DNA of 55,610 nucleotides from Bacteroidota bacterium (GTDB lineage: Bacteria > Bacteroidota > Bacteroidia > UBA8524), in assembly GCA_016124735.1 (NCBI GenBank), contig WGMZ01000022.1, positions 1 through 55,610 of the forward strand, in the 5' to 3' direction. Below, in pieces: positions 46,001-55,561 of the stretch. The notes beneath the pieces were generated by a model that did no database searches, was not told where the DNA came from, and worked only from the letters and a program-made list of their open reading frames with translations. A program made the position numbers and the translations under genes. Within the stretch, counting starts at the first letter, position 1; the number at the start of each line of letters is the position of its first letter.

Positions 46001-46639
46001 TTAATGTCCACCACCACAATTTTCTTTTTCATTTTCAATGATGCTCTTGTATTTCTCCGGAGAAACATACTGAGGCGTGTAGCTTCCTCCGCTGGTTTCA
46101 ATCTGGCTGCTGAATGCACGCATATGATTCCTTGACCCACAATTCAAATCACTGTACACGGTAATCAGGTCGGGATTGCTGGTGTGAGTGAGCAATTTGT
46201 CGATATCATTGATGTCCAGGTCTTCAATGGTTGCTCCGACAATCAAAGCATCCAATTCAGATTGATTGGTTTTAGATAGCAGTTGATTGTACAATACCTG
46301 TAGATTAGGGTTATTAAACACACCTCGCTCTGAAATGGCCGGATCGGTCAATCCATATTTGTGAATCAAATCAAGGGCTCTGTCCATGTGGGTTTGTTCG
46401 CTGTTGCTGATGTGATCAAATGTCATGTGCTTGTATTTTTCCCAGGCGTGCAAATAGATGTCGCGTGCCAATTTTTCTTCTTCTCGCAGGAAGAGCAGAT
46501 CAGATTTTTCCTGTTCTGTCAGGGTGAGGGTAGTGGCATTTTGTATCGGAGCAACATCAGACTTGCTACAGCCGGTGCAGGAGATAAAGCAGGTGGTCAT
46601 ACCGAAGATGAAACTGCTGATTAAAATGAAGTTTTTCAT
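46001..46639 (-). CDS. DUF2202 ferritin-like lipoprotein
   Basis: A 212-residue exported protein. The N-terminus is hydrophobic with a lipobox-like FISC (Cys21). The core matches DUF2202, a ferritin-like helical family, with FLREEEKLARDIYLHAWEKY and SNSEQTHMDRALDLIHKYG; the Glu and His residues could bind a di-metal centre. The C-terminus is NCGGGH. The family has no firmly known role that I can recall; metal or oxidative-stress work is inference. It is a single-gene unit with its own terminator and a CRP/FNR-like palindrome about 80 nt upstream. Confidence 0.85.
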   Translation of the reverse strand: MKNFILISSFIFGMTTCFISCTGCSKSDVAPIQNATTLTLTEQEKSDLLFLREEEKLARDIYLHAWEKYKHMTFDHISNSEQTHMDRALDLIHKYGLTDPAISERGVFNNPNLQVLYNQLLSKTNQSELDALIVGATIEDLDINDIDKLLTHTSNPDLITVYSDLNCGSRNHMRAFSSQIETSGGSYTPQYVSPEKYKSIIENEKENCGGGH

Positions 46640-47059: not shown

Positions 47060-47091
47060 TCTGGTGTCTGGATTCTGGTGTCTGGATTCTG
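47060..47091 (+). repeat. 14-bp tandem repeat
   Basis: TCTGGTGTCTGGAT is present in two perfect tandem copies plus four bases of a third, directly upstream of the arginine operon promoter. Further TCTGG words occur just to the left. Confidence 0.8.
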
Positions 47092-47128
47092 TCATCTCTT
47101 AAAACTTAACACGTAAAACTTAAAACCC

Positions 47129-47158
47129 TTTGCGTATTTCCAATTTCTATTACATTTG
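47129..47158 (+). promoter_or_regulatory. Promoter of the arginine operon leader
   Basis: TTTG (47129-47132) is 18 nt before TACATTTG (47151-47158), a strong Bacteroidota-type promoter. Transcription should begin about 47163-47166. Confidence 0.78.
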
Positions 47159-47164
47159 CATCCG

Positions 47165-47257
47165 CAAAATGACAACGATTCTTCTGAACTTAAGATCACC
47201 TAGACGTCAGCCAAATACGGCAGGCTAGAGGTGTGTTCAGAGCATATAACATACTTG
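47165..47257 (+). ncRNA. Structured leader RNA upstream of the arginine operon
   Basis: The first 90 or so nt of the transcript fold as nested stems: P1 TCTGAAC/GTTCAGA (47183-47189 with 47235-47241), inside it CACCT/AGGTG (47197-47201 with 47229-47233), then a CTAG pairing and a small GCC/GGC hairpin. Directly behind it is an intrinsic terminator. The order promoter, structured domain, terminator, operon is that of a riboswitch or other attenuator; a free-standing small RNA is the alternative. I cannot match it to a class I know. Confidence 0.55.
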
Positions 47258-47285
47258 AAGGCTTGCCACTTGGCAGGCCTTTTTT
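47258..47285 (+). terminator. Intrinsic terminator inside the arginine operon leader
   Basis: AAGGCTTGCC (47258-47267) pairs with GGCAGGCCTT (47272-47281) over the loop ACTT, followed by a six-T run (47280-47285). It lies 15 nt before a small ORF and 126 nt before the first enzyme gene, so transcripts reaching the operon must escape it. Confidence 0.88.
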
Positions 47286-47299
47286 ATTTAATAACAAAA

Positions 47300-47398
47300 A
47301 TGAACACTACGCTTTATACGAATGTCCGAACTCCGCGTCTGGGAAGACGCCATTTCGAATCCATCCAATCGATAGCCGACATGTTAAACTACACCTAG
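47300..47398 (+). CDS. Putative arginine leader peptide (32 residues)
   Basis: ATG at 47300 to TAG at 47396-47398. The peptide contains VRTPRLGRRH: four arginines within eight residues, encoded by four different codons (CGA, CGT, AGA, CGC). The Arg codons overlap a perfect hairpin GCGTCT-GGGA-AGACGC (47335-47350). The stop codon is followed by GC and a six-T run (47400-47405), then the first enzyme gene 12 nt on. Arg enrichment just upstream of an arginine operon is the hallmark of ribosome-mediated control. The C-terminal half (HFESIQSIADML) looks protein-like too, so a functional micro-protein is possible. Confidence 0.6.
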   Translation: MNTTLYTNVRTPRLGRRHFESIQSIADMLNYT

Positions 47399-47410: not shown

Positions 47411-48082
47411 TTGAAAAATAAATTCGTCATTAAGGTAGCGGAAGAGAAACACCTTCCCTACGCACAAACCATCGTCGATGAGATGGAGACGTCCGCCAAA
47501 ATGCGTGGAACCGGAATCGCGAAACGCAGTCCGGAATTCATCGAGAAAAAAATGATGGAAGGCAAAGCCGTCATCGCTTTGACCACTTCAGGGGAATGGG
47601 CCGGATTCTGCTACATCGAATCCTGGAGTCATGGCCAGTTTGTTGCCAACTCCGGCCTTATCGTCAATCCGCAATTCAGAAAAAGCGGACTGGCCAAAGA
47701 AATTAAAGAGCGCATCTTTCAACTTTCGCGCAACCGCTATCCTAAGGCTAAAATATTCGGACTCACCACAGGTCTCGCCGTGATGAAGATCAATTCCGAT
47801 CTCGGCTATGAGCCAGTGACCTATCAGGAGCTCACCACCGATGAAGAATTTTGGAGTGGCTGCAAGAGTTGTATCAACTACGATATCCTGATGGCGAAGG
47901 AGCGGAAGAACTGCATGTGCACAGCCATGCTCTATGATCCGGAAGAAAGTGTGATGAAAAAACTCAAAGGTCGCCGACTGGATTTCTCAAAGAACTCTAA
48001 ACTCTACGAACGCTATATGCGCATCAAGAAAAGCCGCTTGATACGCCTCTTTGTTAAACCTCAAAATCCTGTCATTAAGTAA
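47411..48082 (+). CDS. GNAT acyltransferase, probable N-acylglutamate synthase, with CxxC/CxC motif
   Basis: A 223-residue GNAT-fold protein as first enzyme of the arginine operon, where it should acylate glutamate (acetyl or, more likely here, succinyl). It has an acyl-CoA pyrophosphate loop near QFRKSGLAKEI. Residues 151-170 carry CKSC and NCMC (Cys151, 154, 168, 170), a likely metal-binding set outside the usual GNAT core. The start is TTG at 47411; an in-frame stop lies two codons upstream and the next ATG would remove 24 conserved-looking residues. Placement before argG matches the gene order I recall in Bacteroides, where canonical argA or argJ is absent. Confidence 0.8.
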   Translation: MKNKFVIKVAEEKHLPYAQTIVDEMETSAKMRGTGIAKRSPEFIEKKMMEGKAVIALTTSGEWAGFCYIESWSHGQFVANSGLIVNPQFRKSGLAKEIKERIFQLSRNRYPKAKIFGLTTGLAVMKINSDLGYEPVTYQELTTDEEFWSGCKSCINYDILMAKERKNCMCTAMLYDPEESVMKKLKGRRLDFSKNSKLYERYMRIKKSRLIRLFVKPQNPVIK

Positions 48083-48083
48083 G

Positions 48084-49295
48084 ATGAAAAAAGTATTGTT
48101 AGCCTACAGCGGCGGACTTGATACCAGCTATTGTGCGGTTCATTTGTCCAAAGAACTCGGATACGAGGTACATGCCGTGACCATCAATACAGGTGGGTTT
48201 ACTTCCGTTGAATTGGATGCGATTCAAAAGCGTGCTTTGGATGCGGGTGTGGCCTCCTTTGAAGCTCTGGAGGAAACGGAACGTTATTACGATAAAGTTG
48301 TTCGTTACCTGCTTTTTGGTAATGTACTGAAGAACGATACCTATCCATTATCGGTCAGTGCAGAGCGCATCGCCCAAGCTTCTGCTCTTGCCGCATATGC
48401 ACGTAAAATCAATGCGGATGCGGTAGCACATGGAAGTACAGGTGCAGGGAATGATCAGATTCGTTTCGATATGATCTTGCAAAACCTCCTGCCCGGGATC
48501 GAAATCATTACTCCCATTCGAGACCAGAAGCTGAGTCGCGAAGAGGAGATTGCTTATTTGGCCGCTCATGGTTTCGATTTCAATCCCGAGAAGGCTGCCT
48601 ATAGCATCAACCAGGGATTATGGGGCACTTCGGTGGGAGGAAGGGAAACCTTGAACTCCATGGGGGCTCTGCCGGAATCCGCCTGGCCGATTCAAGCAAC
48701 TGAAAAGGGCGAGAAAAGCATTGAGATTGAATTTGAACAGGGCGCACCGGTGAAACTGAATGGTAAAAGTTCCGGACACCCGGTTGAGCTTATCCGCGCA
48801 CTCCACGAACTAGCGGCACCATATGGAATAGGAAGAGATATTCATGTGGGCGATACTATTTTGGGCATCAAAGGCCGCGTGGGTTTTGAAGCGGCGGTTC
48901 CGATGATTCTGATAAAAGCACATCATCTGCTGGAAAAACATGTACTCACCCGAAGCCAGCTGAATTGGAAAGATCAAATAGCGCAATTCTATGGCAATAA
49001 TCTGCACGAAGGTCTGTTCCTCGATCCGGTGATGCGCAACATGGAAGCTTTTCTGCGCGACAGCCAGAAAATGGTTTCCGGCAAAGTGCGGGTAAAGCTG
49101 TTTCCGTACCGTTTTGAACTGGAGGGAATCGAATCGCCACACGACCTGATGTCGTCCAAATTCGGTACCTACGGGGAAATGAACAAAGCCTGGTCGGGAG
49201 AGGATGTTAAAGGCTTCATCCGGATTTACGGAAACCAAAACAGCATGTATTATCAAATTAATCAGGAGGAGAACCCTTACCATGAATACAATTAA
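48084..49295 (+). CDS. argG: Argininosuccinate synthase
   Basis: Joins citrulline and aspartate using ATP. The 403-residue product starts KKVLLAYSGGLDTSYC with the PP-loop SGGLDTS and has the HGSTGAGNDQIRFD substrate motif. The ATG at 48084 follows the previous stop by 1 nt; the frame open from 48051 lies inside the acyltransferase gene. Overlaps argC by 14 nt. Confidence 0.96.
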   Translation: MKKVLLAYSGGLDTSYCAVHLSKELGYEVHAVTINTGGFTSVELDAIQKRALDAGVASFEALEETERYYDKVVRYLLFGNVLKNDTYPLSVSAERIAQASALAAYARKINADAVAHGSTGAGNDQIRFDMILQNLLPGIEIITPIRDQKLSREEEIAYLAAHGFDFNPEKAAYSINQGLWGTSVGGRETLNSMGALPESAWPIQATEKGEKSIEIEFEQGAPVKLNGKSSGHPVELIRALHELAAPYGIGRDIHVGDTILGIKGRVGFEAAVPMILIKAHHLLEKHVLTRSQLNWKDQIAQFYGNNLHEGLFLDPVMRNMEAFLRDSQKMVSGKVRVKLFPYRFELEGIESPHDLMSSKFGTYGEMNKAWSGEDVKGFIRIYGNQNSMYYQINQEENPYHEYN

Positions 49296-50262
49296 AGTTG
49301 GAATAATCGGGGCAGCTGGATATACCGGTGGAGAATTGATGCGTTTATTGATTTCTCATCCTAATGTTGACATTGCCTTCGCGTACAGCAAAAGTTCTGC
49401 AGGCAAGAAATGGTATGAAGTGCATCACGACCTGCTTGGACTTACTGATCGGGGCTTTACCGTGGGGTTCTCTCAGGATATCGACGTCTTGTTTTTATGT
49501 TCCGGTCATGGAGAAAGTCGCCGTTTTCTGGAAAATAATCCACTCAATCCATCCATCCGCATCATCGATCTGAGCACAGACTTTCGTCACCGGGAGGACG
49601 CAGATTTTCAGAACAGGACTTTTATTTACGGACTTCCTGAACTCAACCGGGACAAAATTGCCAACGCAAGAAACATCGCCAATCCGGGCTGTTTTGCTAC
49701 GGCTATTCAACTGGCATTGTTGCCCCTGGCAAATGCAAAGATGGATTTGTCAGCTGTCCATGTGAATGCGACGACTGGCTCAACGGGCGCCGGACAAAAA
49801 CCCACAGAGACAACACATTTCAGCTGGAGAGACAATAATCTGTCCATCTACAAAGCCTTCACGCATCAGCATTTGCAGGAGATTGAGGAGAGTGTAAAAA
49901 GTCTGAACCCTGATTTTCCGTCCATCTCCTTTGTTCCGCAACGGGGAAATTTCAGCCGGGGAATATTGGCGGCAGCCATGGTAGAAACAGAGAAATCCAT
50001 CGAAGAGATAAACGCGCTGTTTACCGAATATTATAAAGGGCATCCATTTACACAGGTTGCACCTTTTGAGGTGGCACTGAAACAGGTAGTGAATACCAAT
50101 TTCTGTTACCTCGGAATTCAAAAAGAAGGCAATCAGCTTTTGATTGTTTCCGTGATTGATAACCTGCTGAAAGGCGCTTCCGGACAAGCCGTTCAAAACA
50201 TGAATCTCATGTTTGGCTTACCGGAAACGGCCGGACTTCAGCTCAAAGCCTCCGCATTCTGA
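49282..50262 (+). CDS. argC: N-acyl-gamma-glutamyl-phosphate reductase
   Basis: NADPH-dependent reduction of the acylglutamyl phosphate to the semialdehyde. The 326-residue product has GIIGAAGYTGGELMRLL for NADP binding and the catalytic Cys in NPGCFATAIQLALLPL. A strong Shine-Dalgarno-like AGGAGGAG at 49264-49271 lies before the ATG at 49282, which is rare in this window and fixes the start inside the argG tail. Confidence 0.96.
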   Translation: MNTIKVGIIGAAGYTGGELMRLLISHPNVDIAFAYSKSSAGKKWYEVHHDLLGLTDRGFTVGFSQDIDVLFLCSGHGESRRFLENNPLNPSIRIIDLSTDFRHREDADFQNRTFIYGLPELNRDKIANARNIANPGCFATAIQLALLPLANAKMDLSAVHVNATTGSTGAGQKPTETTHFSWRDNNLSIYKAFTHQHLQEIEESVKSLNPDFPSISFVPQRGNFSRGILAAAMVETEKSIEEINALFTEYYKGHPFTQVAPFEVALKQVVNTNFCYLGIQKEGNQLLIVSVIDNLLKGASGQAVQNMNLMFGLPETAGLQLKASAF

Positions 50263-51401
50263 TGAAATTATTTGATGTATATCCGTTGTATAATATCACC
50301 CCTGTAAAGGCGAAAGGTTCCCGCTTATGGGATAAAAACGGAGAAGAATACCTCGACCTTTACGGAGGGCATGCGGTTATTTCCGTGGGGCATTCTCATC
50401 CGCATTATGTGAAAAGATTGGAGGAGCAATTGGAGCAAATTGCATTTTACAGCAATGCCGTGAAAATTCCCCAGCAAGAGGAATTGGCAGCTTTGCTCGG
50501 TGCTATTTCTGGCTATACGGACTATCAGCTCTTCCTTTCCAACTCAGGAGCGGAAGCCAATGAGAATGCCTTGAAAATGGCCTCTTTTCATACCGGAAGA
50601 AAAAAGCTCATTGTGATGAAGGGCTCCTTCCATGGGCGTACTTCACTAGCCGTTGCGGCTACCGATAACCCATCGATTGTGGCCTCGATGAATGCGGTCG
50701 ATTTTATCGAATTCATTCCGCTCAATGACCTGGAAGCACTGGAGAATGCTATGAACGAAGAAGTGGCAGCTGTGATGATCGAAGGTATCCAGGGAGTAGC
50801 GGGTATTTATACGCCAACAGCCGAATACCTGCGGTTGGTTCGTCGCTTGTGTGATGCCAATGGAGCCGTGATGATTTTAGATGAGGTCCAATCAGGATAT
50901 GGTCGCAGCGGTGCATTTTTCGCGCATCAATTGAGCGGGGTAAAACCAGACATCATCTCCATTGCTAAGGGAATGGGGAATGGGTTCCCGGTGGCAGGCA
51001 CACTATTGTCTCCAAAATTTCAGGCTAAACATGGTTTGCTGGGAACAACTTTCGGAGGGAACTATCTGGCTTGTGCTGCGGCATTGGCCGTTCTGGAAAT
51101 CATCCGGGAAGAGAAACTGGTGGAACGTGCAAAAATCCTGGGAGAGAAATTGATACCTGAACTCAAAGCCATTCCGGGAGTCGAAGAAGTGCGGGGTACC
51201 GGATTGATGCTTGGAATTCAGACACCTTACCCTGCCGCACAAATACGGAAGATGCTATTAAGCGATTCAAAAATATTTACCGGCTCCGCATCCCAGCCCA
51301 ATACCGTTCGCCTGTTGCCTGCACTGAATGTTCAGGAAAACGAATTGCAGCAATTTGTGGATGGATTGAAAAAGGCATTGAATAAGGAGGTCCGGGCATG
51401 A
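50262..51401 (+). CDS. argD: N-acylornithine aminotransferase
   Basis: PLP enzyme making N-acylornithine from the semialdehyde and glutamate. The 379-residue product has the aspartate motif MILDEVQSGYGRSG and the PLP lysine in SIAKGMGNGFPVAG. It shares one base with argC (TGATG) and overlaps the transcarbamylase gene by 4 nt. In this operon its product is probably N-succinylornithine. Confidence 0.95.
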   Translation: MKLFDVYPLYNITPVKAKGSRLWDKNGEEYLDLYGGHAVISVGHSHPHYVKRLEEQLEQIAFYSNAVKIPQQEELAALLGAISGYTDYQLFLSNSGAEANENALKMASFHTGRKKLIVMKGSFHGRTSLAVAATDNPSIVASMNAVDFIEFIPLNDLEALENAMNEEVAAVMIEGIQGVAGIYTPTAEYLRLVRRLCDANGAVMILDEVQSGYGRSGAFFAHQLSGVKPDIISIAKGMGNGFPVAGTLLSPKFQAKHGLLGTTFGGNYLACAAALAVLEIIREEKLVERAKILGEKLIPELKAIPGVEEVRGTGLMLGIQTPYPAAQIRKMLLSDSKIFTGSASQPNTVRLLPALNVQENELQQFVDGLKKALNKEVRA

Positions 51402-52375
51402 AGCAGTTCTTAAGTGTGGCGGATGTTTCGTCAATTCCTCAATTGGTGGAGGAAGCCCTGGAGATGAAAAACGGACATGTGCAGTTCAACGAATTCGGAC
51501 AAGGCCTCAAGCTGGGAATGGTCTTTCTGAATCCGAGTTTGCGTACCCGCTTAAGTACGGAGATGGCAGCCAAAAATTTAGGGATGGAGGTTCAGGTACT
51601 CAATATGGGCTCCGATACCTGGGGACTGGAATTCGGCGAAGGGGCTGTGATGAATCAGGATAAACCGGAACATGTAAAAGAAGCGGCCGGAGTAATCGGT
51701 CGTTACTTTGACATCGTTGGGCTGCGCAGCTTCCCCGGATTGATGAGCAAAGTAGAAGATGATGCGGAAACGGTATTTCGCTCTTTTGGCAAATACGTGG
51801 ACAAGCCTTTACTGAGCATGGAAAGTGCCACACGGCATCCGTTGCAAAGTCTGGCGGATCTCATTACGATTGCCGAACACAGCAAAAAGAAACGACCAAA
51901 GATTGCTTTGACCTGGGCACCCCATGTGAAGGCATTGCCGCAGGCGGTTCCGCATTCTTTTGCAGAATGGATGCTCGCTACCGGGCATGAATTGCATATT
52001 GCTCATCCGGCAGGCCTGGAACTGGACCCTTCCTTTACCGATGGCGCTTTTATCACCCATAATCAACAGGAGGCATTGGAGGATGCCGACTTCATCTACG
52101 TGAAAAACTGGTCGATGCGCGAACCTTATGGGAAAACATATAATGGAGGTGGAGAATGGATGTTGCGGGAAGACAGTCTGAAAGGAGCTTCCGAGGCGAA
52201 AATTATGCATTGCCTGCCGGTACGCCGGAATATTGAGTTGAGTGATGAACTTCTGGACTCGCCTCGTTCCATGGTATTGAACCAGGCGGAAAACCGGCTT
52301 TGGTCGGCACAGGTGGTTTTGAAAAAGATGATTGAATCAATCCATGAAAAACGGAAAGAAACTGTGGGTCATTAA
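51398..52375 (+). CDS. argF': N-succinylornithine carbamoyltransferase (ArgF')
   Basis: Transfers the carbamoyl group to an N-acylated ornithine, giving N-acylcitrulline. The 325-residue product has the carbamoyl phosphate motif FLNPSLRTRLSTE, ATRHPLQSLADL, and HCLPVRRNIELSDE. Residue 90 is Pro (in NQDKPEH). From memory the succinyl-specific Bacteroides fragilis enzyme has Pro90 here, and the acetyl-specific Xanthomonas enzyme has Glu in the matching place, so succinylornithine is the likelier substrate. It is not a classical ornithine transcarbamylase. Confidence 0.88.
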   Translation: MKQFLSVADVSSIPQLVEEALEMKNGHVQFNEFGQGLKLGMVFLNPSLRTRLSTEMAAKNLGMEVQVLNMGSDTWGLEFGEGAVMNQDKPEHVKEAAGVIGRYFDIVGLRSFPGLMSKVEDDAETVFRSFGKYVDKPLLSMESATRHPLQSLADLITIAEHSKKKRPKIALTWAPHVKALPQAVPHSFAEWMLATGHELHIAHPAGLELDPSFTDGAFITHNQQEALEDADFIYVKNWSMREPYGKTYNGGGEWMLREDSLKGASEAKIMHCLPVRRNIELSDELLDSPRSMVLNQAENRLWSAQVVLKKMIESIHEKRKETVGH

Positions 52376-53147
52376 GATTGGCGGCAAAGTGCTCGACCAG
52401 GAACAGGCGCTGAAGGCCGTATTGAAGGAACTGACAGGCATTCAGGAACCCCTTATTCTGGTGCATGGTGGAGGCAAACGTGCCACTGAATTGGCTGAGG
52501 CACTGAATGTGCCACAACGCATGGTGGACGGCCGTCGCATCACCGACAGCGAAACGCTCAATATCGCTTTGATGGCCTATGCGGGCGAGTTGAATAAAAA
52601 AGTAGTGGCTCGTCTTCAGTCAAATGGTTGCAACGCCATTGGCCTGACCGGAGCAGACGGAAATGTGCTCAAAGCAGATAAACGTTCTCCCGAACCTGTT
52701 GAATTTGGCTGGGTGGGCGACCCGAAAAAGGAATACCTCGACAGTTCCTTCCTTGAGCTCATATTAGAGAAGAAGATGATACCGGTGTTTTGCGCCTTAA
52801 CCCATGATGGAGATGGACATATGCTCAATACCAACGCCGATACAATGGCTTCTGTTATTGCTTCTGGTATGGCGGAAAAATATGAAGTCAATCTGGTGTA
52901 CCTCTTTGAAAAGAAAGGGGTGATGAAAGATGTGGAAGAGGAGGATAGTTTAATTCCCCTCGTTCATCTTAATGATATTTCCAGTCTTCAGGAACAAGGG
53001 ATTATTAACGCAGGAATGTTGCCCAAATTGAAGAATGCGGCCGAGGCCGTTGAAGCCGGCGTGTCGCTTGTTCTTATTGGCTCGGCATCAAATCTTCAGG
53101 ATATCCTAAACGAAAAACCACAATCAGCCACCTATGTTGTCGCCTGA
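52344..53147 (+). CDS. argB: N-acylglutamate kinase
   Basis: Phosphorylates N-acylglutamate. The 267-residue amino-acid-kinase-fold protein has WVIKIGGKVL, the LVHGGGKRATEL loop and NINADTMAS-like TNADTMASVIASGMAE. Start at ATG 52344; a TTG four codons upstream is less likely. It overlaps argF' by 32 nt and the deacylase gene by 14 nt. Confidence 0.94.
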   Translation: MKNGKKLWVIKIGGKVLDQEQALKAVLKELTGIQEPLILVHGGGKRATELAEALNVPQRMVDGRRITDSETLNIALMAYAGELNKKVVARLQSNGCNAIGLTGADGNVLKADKRSPEPVEFGWVGDPKKEYLDSSFLELILEKKMIPVFCALTHDGDGHMLNTNADTMASVIASGMAEKYEVNLVYLFEKKGVMKDVEEEDSLIPLVHLNDISSLQEQGIINAGMLPKLKNAAEAVEAGVSLVLIGSASNLQDILNEKPQSATYVVA

Positions 53148-54210
53148 GAATACCATACAGGAATCTTTGGAGTTGCTGGAGGCTTTGCTCTGTGTACAAG
53201 CCTATTCCGGAGAGGAACAAGACAAAGCCGATTTGCTGATGAAAACCCTTCAATCCTGGGGCTATACTCCAAAGCGACAGGGGAACAATGTATGGCTGGA
53301 ACATCATCCGGAAAATACGTCGAAAACTCTTTGGTTCCATTCCCATATCGACACGGTGAAACCTGCGGAGGGCTGGATCAGCAATCCTTTTGGTGGGCAA
53401 TGGAACAAGAAAAAACTCACCGCGTTAGGTAGCAATGACGCCGGTGCATCGGTGGTTTCCATGTTGGCGGCTTTCCGGATTCTTGTTCAGGAAGAAGTGC
53501 CACTGAACCTCATCTGGGTAGCCGGCGCAGAGGAGGAAAATTCAGGTAAGGGAGGAGTGGATTCCATGCTCGCTAGCTTGCCTGAAGCAGACCTGGTGCT
53601 GGTAGGAGAGCCCACAGGAATGCAAGCAGCAGTGGCAGAACGCGGGTTGATAGTGATCGATGGAGTAGTGAAAGGAATTGCAGGACATGCGGCACGAAAT
53701 GAAGGGATTAATGCGATTTATGAAGCATTGGAGGATATTCGGTTCTTTCAGAATTACCGTTTTGAAAAAGTTTCAGATACCCTGGGTCCGGTGAGTATGA
53801 ATCTTACCGTGATTGAGGCCGGCGAAAAGCACAATAGCGTGCCGGATGCCTGCCGCTACACGGTGGATATTCGTCTTAACGAGCACTACACACATCACGA
53901 AGTGCTGGAAGAATTGCAGTCCCATTGCAAGGGAACGTTGAAGGTGCGAAGCGAACGTCTGAAGGCGAGTGGGACGCCGACAAATCATGCAGTATTCAAG
54001 GTGTTGGATAAAATGGGAATTTCAAGTTACGGCTCACCGACATTGTCTGACTGGAGTCTGATACCGTATCCCGCAGTTAAGATTGGACCCGGTGATTCGG
54101 CCCGTTCACATACCGCCGAAGAATATATTTTACAGAATGAAATCGAAGATGCAGTTCCTCTCTATGTGGAGCTGATTAAAACCTGGATAGATGAAGAAAC
54201 TATGGAGTAA
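53134..54210 (+). CDS. M20 deacylase, probable N-acylcitrulline deacylase
   Basis: A 358-residue zinc-dependent M20 peptidase-like enzyme. Metal ligands appear in HSHIDTV, SNDAGAS and GAEEENSGKGG, with GEPT and the C-terminal ARSHTAEEYI also typical. In a pathway where carbamoylation happens on the acylated form, the substrate must be N-acylcitrulline, giving citrulline for argG. It plays the ArgE role but on a different substrate. It overlaps argH by 20 nt. Confidence 0.87.
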   Translation: MLSPENTIQESLELLEALLCVQAYSGEEQDKADLLMKTLQSWGYTPKRQGNNVWLEHHPENTSKTLWFHSHIDTVKPAEGWISNPFGGQWNKKKLTALGSNDAGASVVSMLAAFRILVQEEVPLNLIWVAGAEEENSGKGGVDSMLASLPEADLVLVGEPTGMQAAVAERGLIVIDGVVKGIAGHAARNEGINAIYEALEDIRFFQNYRFEKVSDTLGPVSMNLTVIEAGEKHNSVPDACRYTVDIRLNEHYTHHEVLEELQSHCKGTLKVRSERLKASGTPTNHAVFKVLDKMGISSYGSPTLSDWSLIPYPAVKIGPGDSARSHTAEEYILQNEIEDAVPLYVELIKTWIDEETME

Positions 54211-55561
54211 GACTCAAGGAGAGGAATCGGATATAAGCCGTCTCATTCATGAATTCACGGCTGGAGAAGATCGCCATTGGGACCTTCGATTGGCCGAGTT
54301 CGATATCCGAGGCAGCATCGCCCACGTCAATATGTTGGCGAAAACCGGATTGATATCAGAGGAAGACCGCAGGGTGCTGCTACCAGAGATGGAAGCTTTA
54401 CTGGAAAAAGTCAAAGCCGGCGAATTCAGCATAGAAGAAGGGATGGAAGACGTACATTCTCAGGTCGAATTTCTCCTGACTGAAAAGCTGGGTGAAAGCG
54501 GAAAGAAAATTCATGCGGCTCGGTCCCGTAACGACCAGGTATTGGTGGATATGAAGCTTTATCTCAAATCCGAGTTATTGGCGATTCATCAAATGGTACA
54601 GGAATTTGCAACTCTGTTGTTGGAATTGAGCGAGAAGAATAAGGAAGTTTTGCTTCCGGGATACACCCATTATCAGGTGGCTATGCCATCTTCTTTTGGG
54701 TTGTGGTTTGCTTCCTGGAGTGAATGTCTGGCAGAAGATTTATGGAATGTCCATGCGGCAGTAAAACTCATCGATAAGAATCCATTGGGATCTGCTGCAG
54801 GATATGGATCCAGCTTTCCTATTGATCGGGAGATGACGACCAAAGAACTGGGTTTTTCCGACCTCCACTGGAATGTTGTCAATGCCCAAATGAGTCGCGG
54901 AAGGAGTGAAAAAGCAATGGCTGTAGCTATGTCGGCATTGGCTTTTACTCTGGGCAAAATGAGCCAGGATATGGTTTTATACTTGAGTCAGAATTTTGCT
55001 TTTGTCAGATTTCCTGACACCTATACCACCGGGTCCAGTATTATGCCGCACAAGAAAAATCCCGATGTGTTCGAGTTGATTCGTGCCCGTTGCAACCGTC
55101 TGATCAATCTCCCCAATCAGCTCAGTTTGATTCAGGCAAACCTCTCTTCAGGTTATCACCGCGACTGGCAATTATTCAAAGAGGCATTATTTCCCGCAAT
55201 AGATGATATCAAGGCGTGCTTTCAAATGGCTACTGAGATGATGAAGGCAATTGAGGTTCAGGACAATCTGACCGGGAACGAATTGTATCGCTATCTGTTT
55301 ACGGTGGAAGCGGTGAATCAAAAAGTCTTGGACGGATTCTCCTTCCGCGAGGCCTACCGCGAGGTGGGAATGGATGTAGAAGCTGGAAAATTTGAATGGA
55401 ACGAGGCGCTAAATCACACCCACCAGGGGAGCATTGGAAATTTACGGAATGAGGAGATTGTTCGTCAGTTGAGAGAAGTAAGAGATGCAATTGGTCAAAT
55501 TCAAAATCTGGAATCGCTCGGCCCGGAAGGCCCGAGCGATATTTTATCGCGGTCAAAATAA
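54191..55561 (+). CDS. argH: Argininosuccinate lyase
   Basis: Splits argininosuccinate to arginine and fumarate. The 456-residue product has the fumarase-superfamily signature GSSIMPHKKNPD, DVHSQVEFLLTEKLGE and RSRNDQVLVDMKLYL. The last gene of the operon; its 3' end contains one hairpin and a terminator follows directly. Confidence 0.96.
   Translation: MKKLWSKTQGEESDISRLIHEFTAGEDRHWDLRLAEFDIRGSIAHVNMLAKTGLISEEDRRVLLPEMEALLEKVKAGEFSIEEGMEDVHSQVEFLLTEKLGESGKKIHAARSRNDQVLVDMKLYLKSELLAIHQMVQEFATLLLELSEKNKEVLLPGYTHYQVAMPSSFGLWFASWSECLAEDLWNVHAAVKLIDKNPLGSAAGYGSSFPIDREMTTKELGFSDLHWNVVNAQMSRGRSEKAMAVAMSALAFTLGKMSQDMVLYLSQNFAFVRFPDTYTTGSSIMPHKKNPDVFELIRARCNRLINLPNQLSLIQANLSSGYHRDWQLFKEALFPAIDDIKACFQMATEMMKAIEVQDNLTGNELYRYLFTVEAVNQKVLDGFSFREAYREVGMDVEAGKFEWNEALNHTHQGSIGNLRNEEIVRQLREVRDAIGQIQNLESLGPEGPSDILSRSK
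55513..55540 (+). terminator. Hairpin in the 3' end of argH
   Basis: ATCGCTCGG (55513-55521) pairs with CCGAGCGAT (55532-55540), then ATTTTAT follows. It lies in the coding end of argH and may act as the first of two tandem stops. Confidence 0.6.

Follow-up and report, generated by a model that had tools for sequence, protein, structure and literature searches.

The window, i.e. the whole analysed stretch of 55,610 nucleotides, is contig 36 of genome G000 (3.11 Mb, 98.6% complete); among named organisms, its close relatives belong to Chitinophagales and other Bacteroidia. It contains a complete arginine operon in the order GNAT-argG-C-D-F'-B-E-H, preceded by a promoter, a short leader ORF, a set of alternative RNA pairings ending in an intrinsic terminator, and a second short ORF (Table 1). 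The operon, before which the earlier note had placed a structured element, was confirmed by Pfam and NCBIfam, the names argD, argF' and argE being given at the family level, since some NCBIfam scores are under the equivalog cut-offs. The product of the first gene plausibly catalyses the N-acylation that opens the pathway, possibly as an N-acylglutamate synthase. A Cys-rich stretch (GCKSCINYDILMAKERKNCMCTAM) is present in this protein. In two genomes from the genus of the window genome (G001, 97% complete, and G002), neither a GNAT of the operon's family nor argG was detected, which suggests that arginine synthesis was lost within this genus.

Table 1. Features of the arginine operon and of its upstream region in the window.
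Feature	Position	Strand	Details
Bacteroidota housekeeping promoter	47129..47158	+	-33 TTTG 47129-47132; 18-nt spacer; -7 TACATTTG 47151-47158
Leader peptide ORF	47169..47228	+	MTTILLNLRSPRRQPNTAG; 19 codons, TAG stop; conserved in L018
Control codons	47193..47207	+	AGA 47193-47195, AGA 47202-47204, CGT 47205-47207; kept in L018
1:2 (protector) pairing	47182..47242	+	P1 47182-47189/47235-47242, P2 47197-47201/47229-47233, inner hairpin; from folding; the P1/P2 of the earlier note
2:3 (antiterminator) pairing	47219..47267	+	47219-47226 GGCAGGCU with 47260-47267 GGCUUGCC; 47229-47237 AGGUGUGUU with 47248-47256 AACAUACUU; from ribosome-occlusion folding
3:4 intrinsic terminator	47257..47285	+	stem 47257-47267/47272-47282, 11 bp; TTTTTT 47280-47285
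Second short ORF	47300..47398	+	MNTTLYTNVRTPRLGRRHFESIQSIADMLNYT; between the terminator and the GNAT gene
First operon gene, GNAT acetyltransferase	47411..48082	+	TTG start; PF00583 20.4 bits, just below the cut-off; no NCBIfam match
Arginine operon	48084..55561	+	argG, argC, argD-type transaminase, N-acetylornithine carbamoyltransferase-like, argB, ArgE/DapE-type deacylase, argH; Pfam and NCBIfam

The promoter fits the published Bacteroidota consensus (-33 TTTG, -7 TAnnTTTG; PMC7366714, PMC9723704) exactly, while a scan for E. coli sigma-70-type promoters yielded nothing useful at the element, as expected. The near-consensus promoter of the earlier note is thus found where it had been placed, but it is a Bacteroidota promoter and not an E. 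coli one. As the -7 box is known to occupy positions -12 to -5 relative to the start (PMC9723704), the transcript is predicted to begin near 47163. The box is kept, at an equal distance to the leader ATG, in L018 (the same locus as L002) of genome G004, where the GNAT protein is 85% identical to that of the window. Just 5' of the promoter there is a short direct repeat (47060-47097, copies of TCTGGTGTCTGGAT), situated in the gap that follows an oppositely oriented DUF2202 gene (46001-46639).

The leader ORF lies between the promoter and the first gene, starts approximately 6 nt 3' of the predicted transcript start and has no Shine-Dalgarno sequence. It reads ATG ACA ACG ATT CTT CTG AAC TTA AGA TCA CCT AGA CGT CAG CCA AAT ACG GCA GGC TAG, with Arg at codons 9, 12 and 13. 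The L018 leader (MKQVLLNYRSLRRRPYAAG) is identical to it in length, frame, start and stop, with no indels; the three Arg residues, the AG codons and the stop are kept, eight other codons differ non-synonymously, and the peptides share the pattern LLN.RS.RR.P..AG. The control codons in L018 are AGA, AGA and CGC, plus an extra AGG; in 12 genes of the window, AGA and AGG together account for 22 of the 172 Arg codons. Three Arg in 19 codons are weak evidence if taken alone (p ~0.05), and three within six consecutive codons have a probability of 0.0015 for a stated six, the stretch here having been picked post hoc.

The region 47165-47290 folds at -39.0 kcal/mol, compared to -25.0 +/- 3.1 for shuffled sequences (z = -4.5; 0 of 200 shuffles as stable); this excess of stability owes much to the terminator, the upstream domain alone having z = -2.7. 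Both the nested stems (P1 and the inner ones) and the terminator with six T, claimed previously, are present, the terminator stem being measured as 11 bp. What had been missed is that these stems overlap the leader ORF with its Arg codons. In L018, the inner P2 is UUAG/CUAA in place of CUAG/CUAG of the window, and the terminator stem is practically identical, with a different loop. Two segments could take part in alternative pairings. GGCAGGCU, which comprises the last codons of the leader and its stop, repeats the terminator 3' arm GGCAGGCC and is therefore able to pair with the terminator 5' arm, whereas AGGUGUGUU has two partners, either back in the ORF (P1/P2) or forward, with AACAUACUU.

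Stable nested stems ahead of a terminator and an arginine operon might be regarded as an aptamer for arginine, ornithine or a related metabolite, with the terminator as the expression platform. The stems, however, coincide with a conserved ORF bearing the relevant codons and are the 1:2 pairing made by the leader coding sequence. Moreover, Rfam searches of the window and of related loci, at both gathering and permissive thresholds, gave sub-threshold terminator-like matches only, and no conserved aptamer was seen before homologous operons. The stems are kept in L018 and in no other examined genome; the remaining relatives carry unrelated Arg-coding ORFs. Hence we consider the riboswitch layout suggested in the earlier note very improbable, and, as the structure occurs in just one other genome while the relatives share Arg-ending short ORFs instead, the proposed new class of structured RNA is not borne out. 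A T-box leader was rejected as well, with no Rfam match in the window or in 20 related loci.

To follow the pairings during translation, the ribosome was modelled as a block covering 18 nt behind and 12 nt ahead from the A-site codon (an assumed footprint) and stepped codon by codon. In full-length equilibrium folding of the window, the terminator wins at every ribosome position and switching is not reproduced; L018 does switch under these conditions. Occlusion folding was hence performed on the RNA ending at the terminator loop. Because the outcome of attenuation is settled while the RNA is still being made, it is the truncated fold that matters, though this is still a model, and the switch in the window, where the full-length terminator always wins at equilibrium, must be kinetic. 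In the truncated RNA, the antiterminator probability is 0.96-0.97 at every A-site position up to and including the last Arg codon, then 0.84 one codon past it, 0.18 two codons past, and 0.00 from the third codon through the stop. For L018, the respective values are 0.99, 0.99, 0.99 and 0.86 on the four Arg codons, followed by 0.23 and 0.00, and thus the boundary of the switch, counted from the last Arg codon of each leader, is the same. When shuffled leaders were placed before the unchanged terminator (n = 1000), the energy contrast between the last-Arg and stop positions, 18.3 kcal/mol, was equalled in none of them, and the sequestration contrast was reached by four. Thus, in silico, the antiterminator excludes the terminator, the choice being made by the position of the ribosome at the control codons. 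The truncated RNA without a ribosome also prefers the antiterminator, so that it is uncertain which structure would prevail on an untranslated leader.

The locus therefore combines a short ORF, clustered Arg codons, an intrinsic terminator and, in silico, an exclusive antiterminator, i.e. the structural features of a leader-peptide attenuator. We consider it highly likely that the element controls the arginine operon as a ribosome-mediated transcription attenuator and senses charged tRNA-Arg; of the roles offered by the earlier note, it is the attenuator of an arginine pathway that is supported by the Arg-codon ORF, the exclusive structures and the operon downstream. The leader ORF is presumably translated, with RNA polymerase transcribing it and a ribosome following close behind. 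If charged tRNA-Arg were scarce, the ribosome would stall on AGA/AGA/CGT and cover region 1, leaving region 2 (GGCAGGCU...AGGUGUGUU, the last codons and the stop) free to pair with region 3 (AACAUACUU...GGCUUGCC); this 2:3 pairing would block the terminator, and the operon would be transcribed. Vice versa, if arginine were plentiful, the ribosome would reach the stop and cover region 2, so that 3:4 would pair and transcription in the cell would end at approximately 47285. If the leader were not translated, the 1:2 stems might be expected to form first, leaving the terminator free, although this case is uncertain. On this model, the cell very probably produces arginine only in times of shortage.

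A terminated transcript of ~120 nt, expected under repressing conditions, would also be the product of an independent small RNA gene that has a promoter and terminator of its own and whose RNA acts in trans, the read-through into the operon being incidental. The element is, however, on the operon's strand and immediately upstream of it, and neither the alternative structure nor the conserved Arg-coding ORF would have a role there; we regard such a small RNA, also put forward previously, as very improbable.

Between the terminator and the operon, the second short ORF contains four Arg codons (VRTPRLGRR). In its last 16 codons, there are five synonymous and two non-synonymous differences from L018, and the C-terminus HFExIQSIxDMLNYT, followed by the stop, is kept in G004 mainly via synonymous changes. 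This ORF, found in G000 and G004 only, could be a second leader or regulatory ORF, or a small protein. When additional copies of the element or of this ORF were sought, both at the DNA level and among short ORFs, G004 alone came up.

Although the element itself is narrowly distributed, Arg-rich leader ORFs stand before this operon in many other Bacteroidota. Among 80 named Bacteroidota loci, 77 have, before the homologous GNAT gene, an ORF with RR at most 10 codons from the stop; since the test (RR or three Arg) was devised after the peptides had been seen, these counts are descriptive. In a survey of 88 ArgR-less genomes drawn evenly from the class, largely independent of the named loci but overlapping with them in some genomes, a strict ORF call, with a false-positive rate near 17%, was positive in 59 genomes, compared to 22 for the reverse strand and a mean of 14.8 (maximum 21) for shuffles. 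Arg ranked first among all twenty residues, the next being L with 34. An earlier enrichment test, which asked for four or more copies of any single residue among the 12 final codons, gave a weak signal (R, 12 of 95; 1.0 in shuffles). Some genomes failing the strict test carry spaced Arg codons (SFTRSSRPSSRP).

The leaders form several unrelated families (...PRRGC/PRPRRGF, ...RRPRI, ...SVRPIPFWVRR, ...FFRRR and others), and in the named relatives 50% of the leader Arg codons are CGA, as opposed to 8% in the GNAT gene. These data bear on another possibility, that the nascent chain senses free arginine or ornithine rather than charged tRNA-Arg. Arrest peptides such as SpeFL and the fungal arginine attenuator peptide sense via the nascent chain, and both the pattern LLN.RS.RR.P..AG, common to the leaders of the two genomes, and the ends PRRGC/PRPRRGF, recurrent in Chitinophagaceae, could be expected of such a peptide. 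Yet the leader families share little except Arg codons, CGA is strongly preferred in the relatives' leaders, the recurrent Chitinophagaceae ends overlap an RNA hairpin, and stalling on the Arg codons predicts an outcome that fits induction by starvation. An arrest peptide thus seems quite improbable, and charged tRNA-Arg remains the signal that we favour.

The hairpin in question (CUGAUAGG...CCUAUCAG), seen in many Chitinophagaceae (L021, 2888-2943, with 34 similar loci in alignment A2), adjoins the Arg codons, includes the stop of the Arg leader (PRRGC/PRPRRGF) and has neither a U tract nor an Rfam match. In the alignment, 97% of the cells are paired, 7 of the 8 outer pairs are invariant, and a few two-sided changes are seen in the inner helix; it is possibly a new regulatory element of arg operons. 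Since the hairpin lacks a U tract, any read-out in Chitinophagaceae would have to be by Rho, pausing or translation. Leaders followed by a strong U-tract terminator were found in the window and G004 only, and any terminator-like hairpin in 13 of the 96 regions, several of these lying inside the leader ORF. In L104, L144 (G111, G047) and L004 (G003), we observed long Arg-ending peptides (...FFIRR, ...FFPRR and ...YISRR before the stop) with a hairpin directly after the stop; leaders of this type also have a CTATTCC..GGAATAG TTTTT hairpin inside the coding region. It is conceivable, though we would put it at somewhat below even, that control by Arg leaders is general in ArgR-less Bacteroidia, in most lineages without an intrinsic terminator, the terminator version in the window being a local conversion of this wider system to the textbook design.

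The arginine repressor itself is rare in the class: PF02863 is absent from 283 of 295 genomes, with positive controls working. Control of the window operon by ArgR was rejected, as this domain was not detected in G000 (98.6% complete). In seven genomes argR is directly before the GNAT gene, and an Arg-clustered ORF precedes argR in one of them, consistent with chance (Fisher p = 0.009 against ArgR-less genomes, comparative p-values being optimistic, as the genomes are not phylogenetically independent). This position directly 5' of the GNAT-arg operon is seen in most ArgR-bearing genomes of the class (L101 in G036, L174, L175, L179, L180, L181, L148). The protein repressor was apparently swapped for a leader peptide across the class, and this exchange is directly testable.

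Regulation of arginine synthesis in ArgR-less Bacteroidota is largely undescribed in the searchable literature. If our interpretation is true, the classical mechanism extends to arginine, an amino acid for which Rfam has no leader family, and reaches a phylum without Shine-Dalgarno initiation; how the first ribosome would couple to RNA polymerase when the leader has a 5' UTR of ~6 nt is then a real mechanistic question. A 2010 comparative-genomics study of attenuation by Lopatovskaya et al., cited in PMC4833913, may list related predictions. We found no arginine-specific leader attenuator in Rfam or, for bacteria, in the searchable literature, and claim no priority. A statement from 2010 limits the demonstrated cases of such systems to Proteobacteria and Actinobacteria, to which Firmicutes were then added (PMC2965389).

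Two published cases share with the window the phylum and the proposed mechanism, namely the leader-peptide attenuation predicted for amino acid operons of Flavobacterium psychrophilum (PMC9723704) and, in Bacteroides thetaiotaomicron, sORFs located within long 5' UTRs (PMC7366714). The main texts of these papers name 5' elements of pheA and hisG and BT_4401, not arginine. The speF leader of Salmonella (PMC6386406) is also a case of leader control in an arginine-linked pathway, but it concerns ornithine decarboxylase rather than arginine biosynthesis, in another organism and with another architecture. The cysS leader uORFC-8-2 of Rhodobacterales (PMC8632094) was predicted by comparative genomics to be a ribosome-mediated attenuator and has tandem control codons and a U-run terminator; it differs in that its codons are for cysteine and the gene encodes an aminoacyl-tRNA synthetase. 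The element belongs to no Rfam leader family and has no sequence relation to the enterobacterial trp, his, thr, leu and phe attenuators (Trp_leader, His_leader, Thr_leader, Leu_leader, Phe_leader), the best score being 23.6 bits for Phe_leader (cut-off 55), mostly due to the terminator hairpin. It differs from them in the Arg codons, the Bacteroidota promoter, the ORF placed almost at the 5' end and the lack of a Shine-Dalgarno sequence. Nevertheless, the proposed mechanism is of an already known, textbook kind, as the enterobacterial attenuators likewise have a short ORF with codons for the amino acid produced, 1:2, 2:3 and 3:4 pairings, and a U-tract terminator before a biosynthetic operon.
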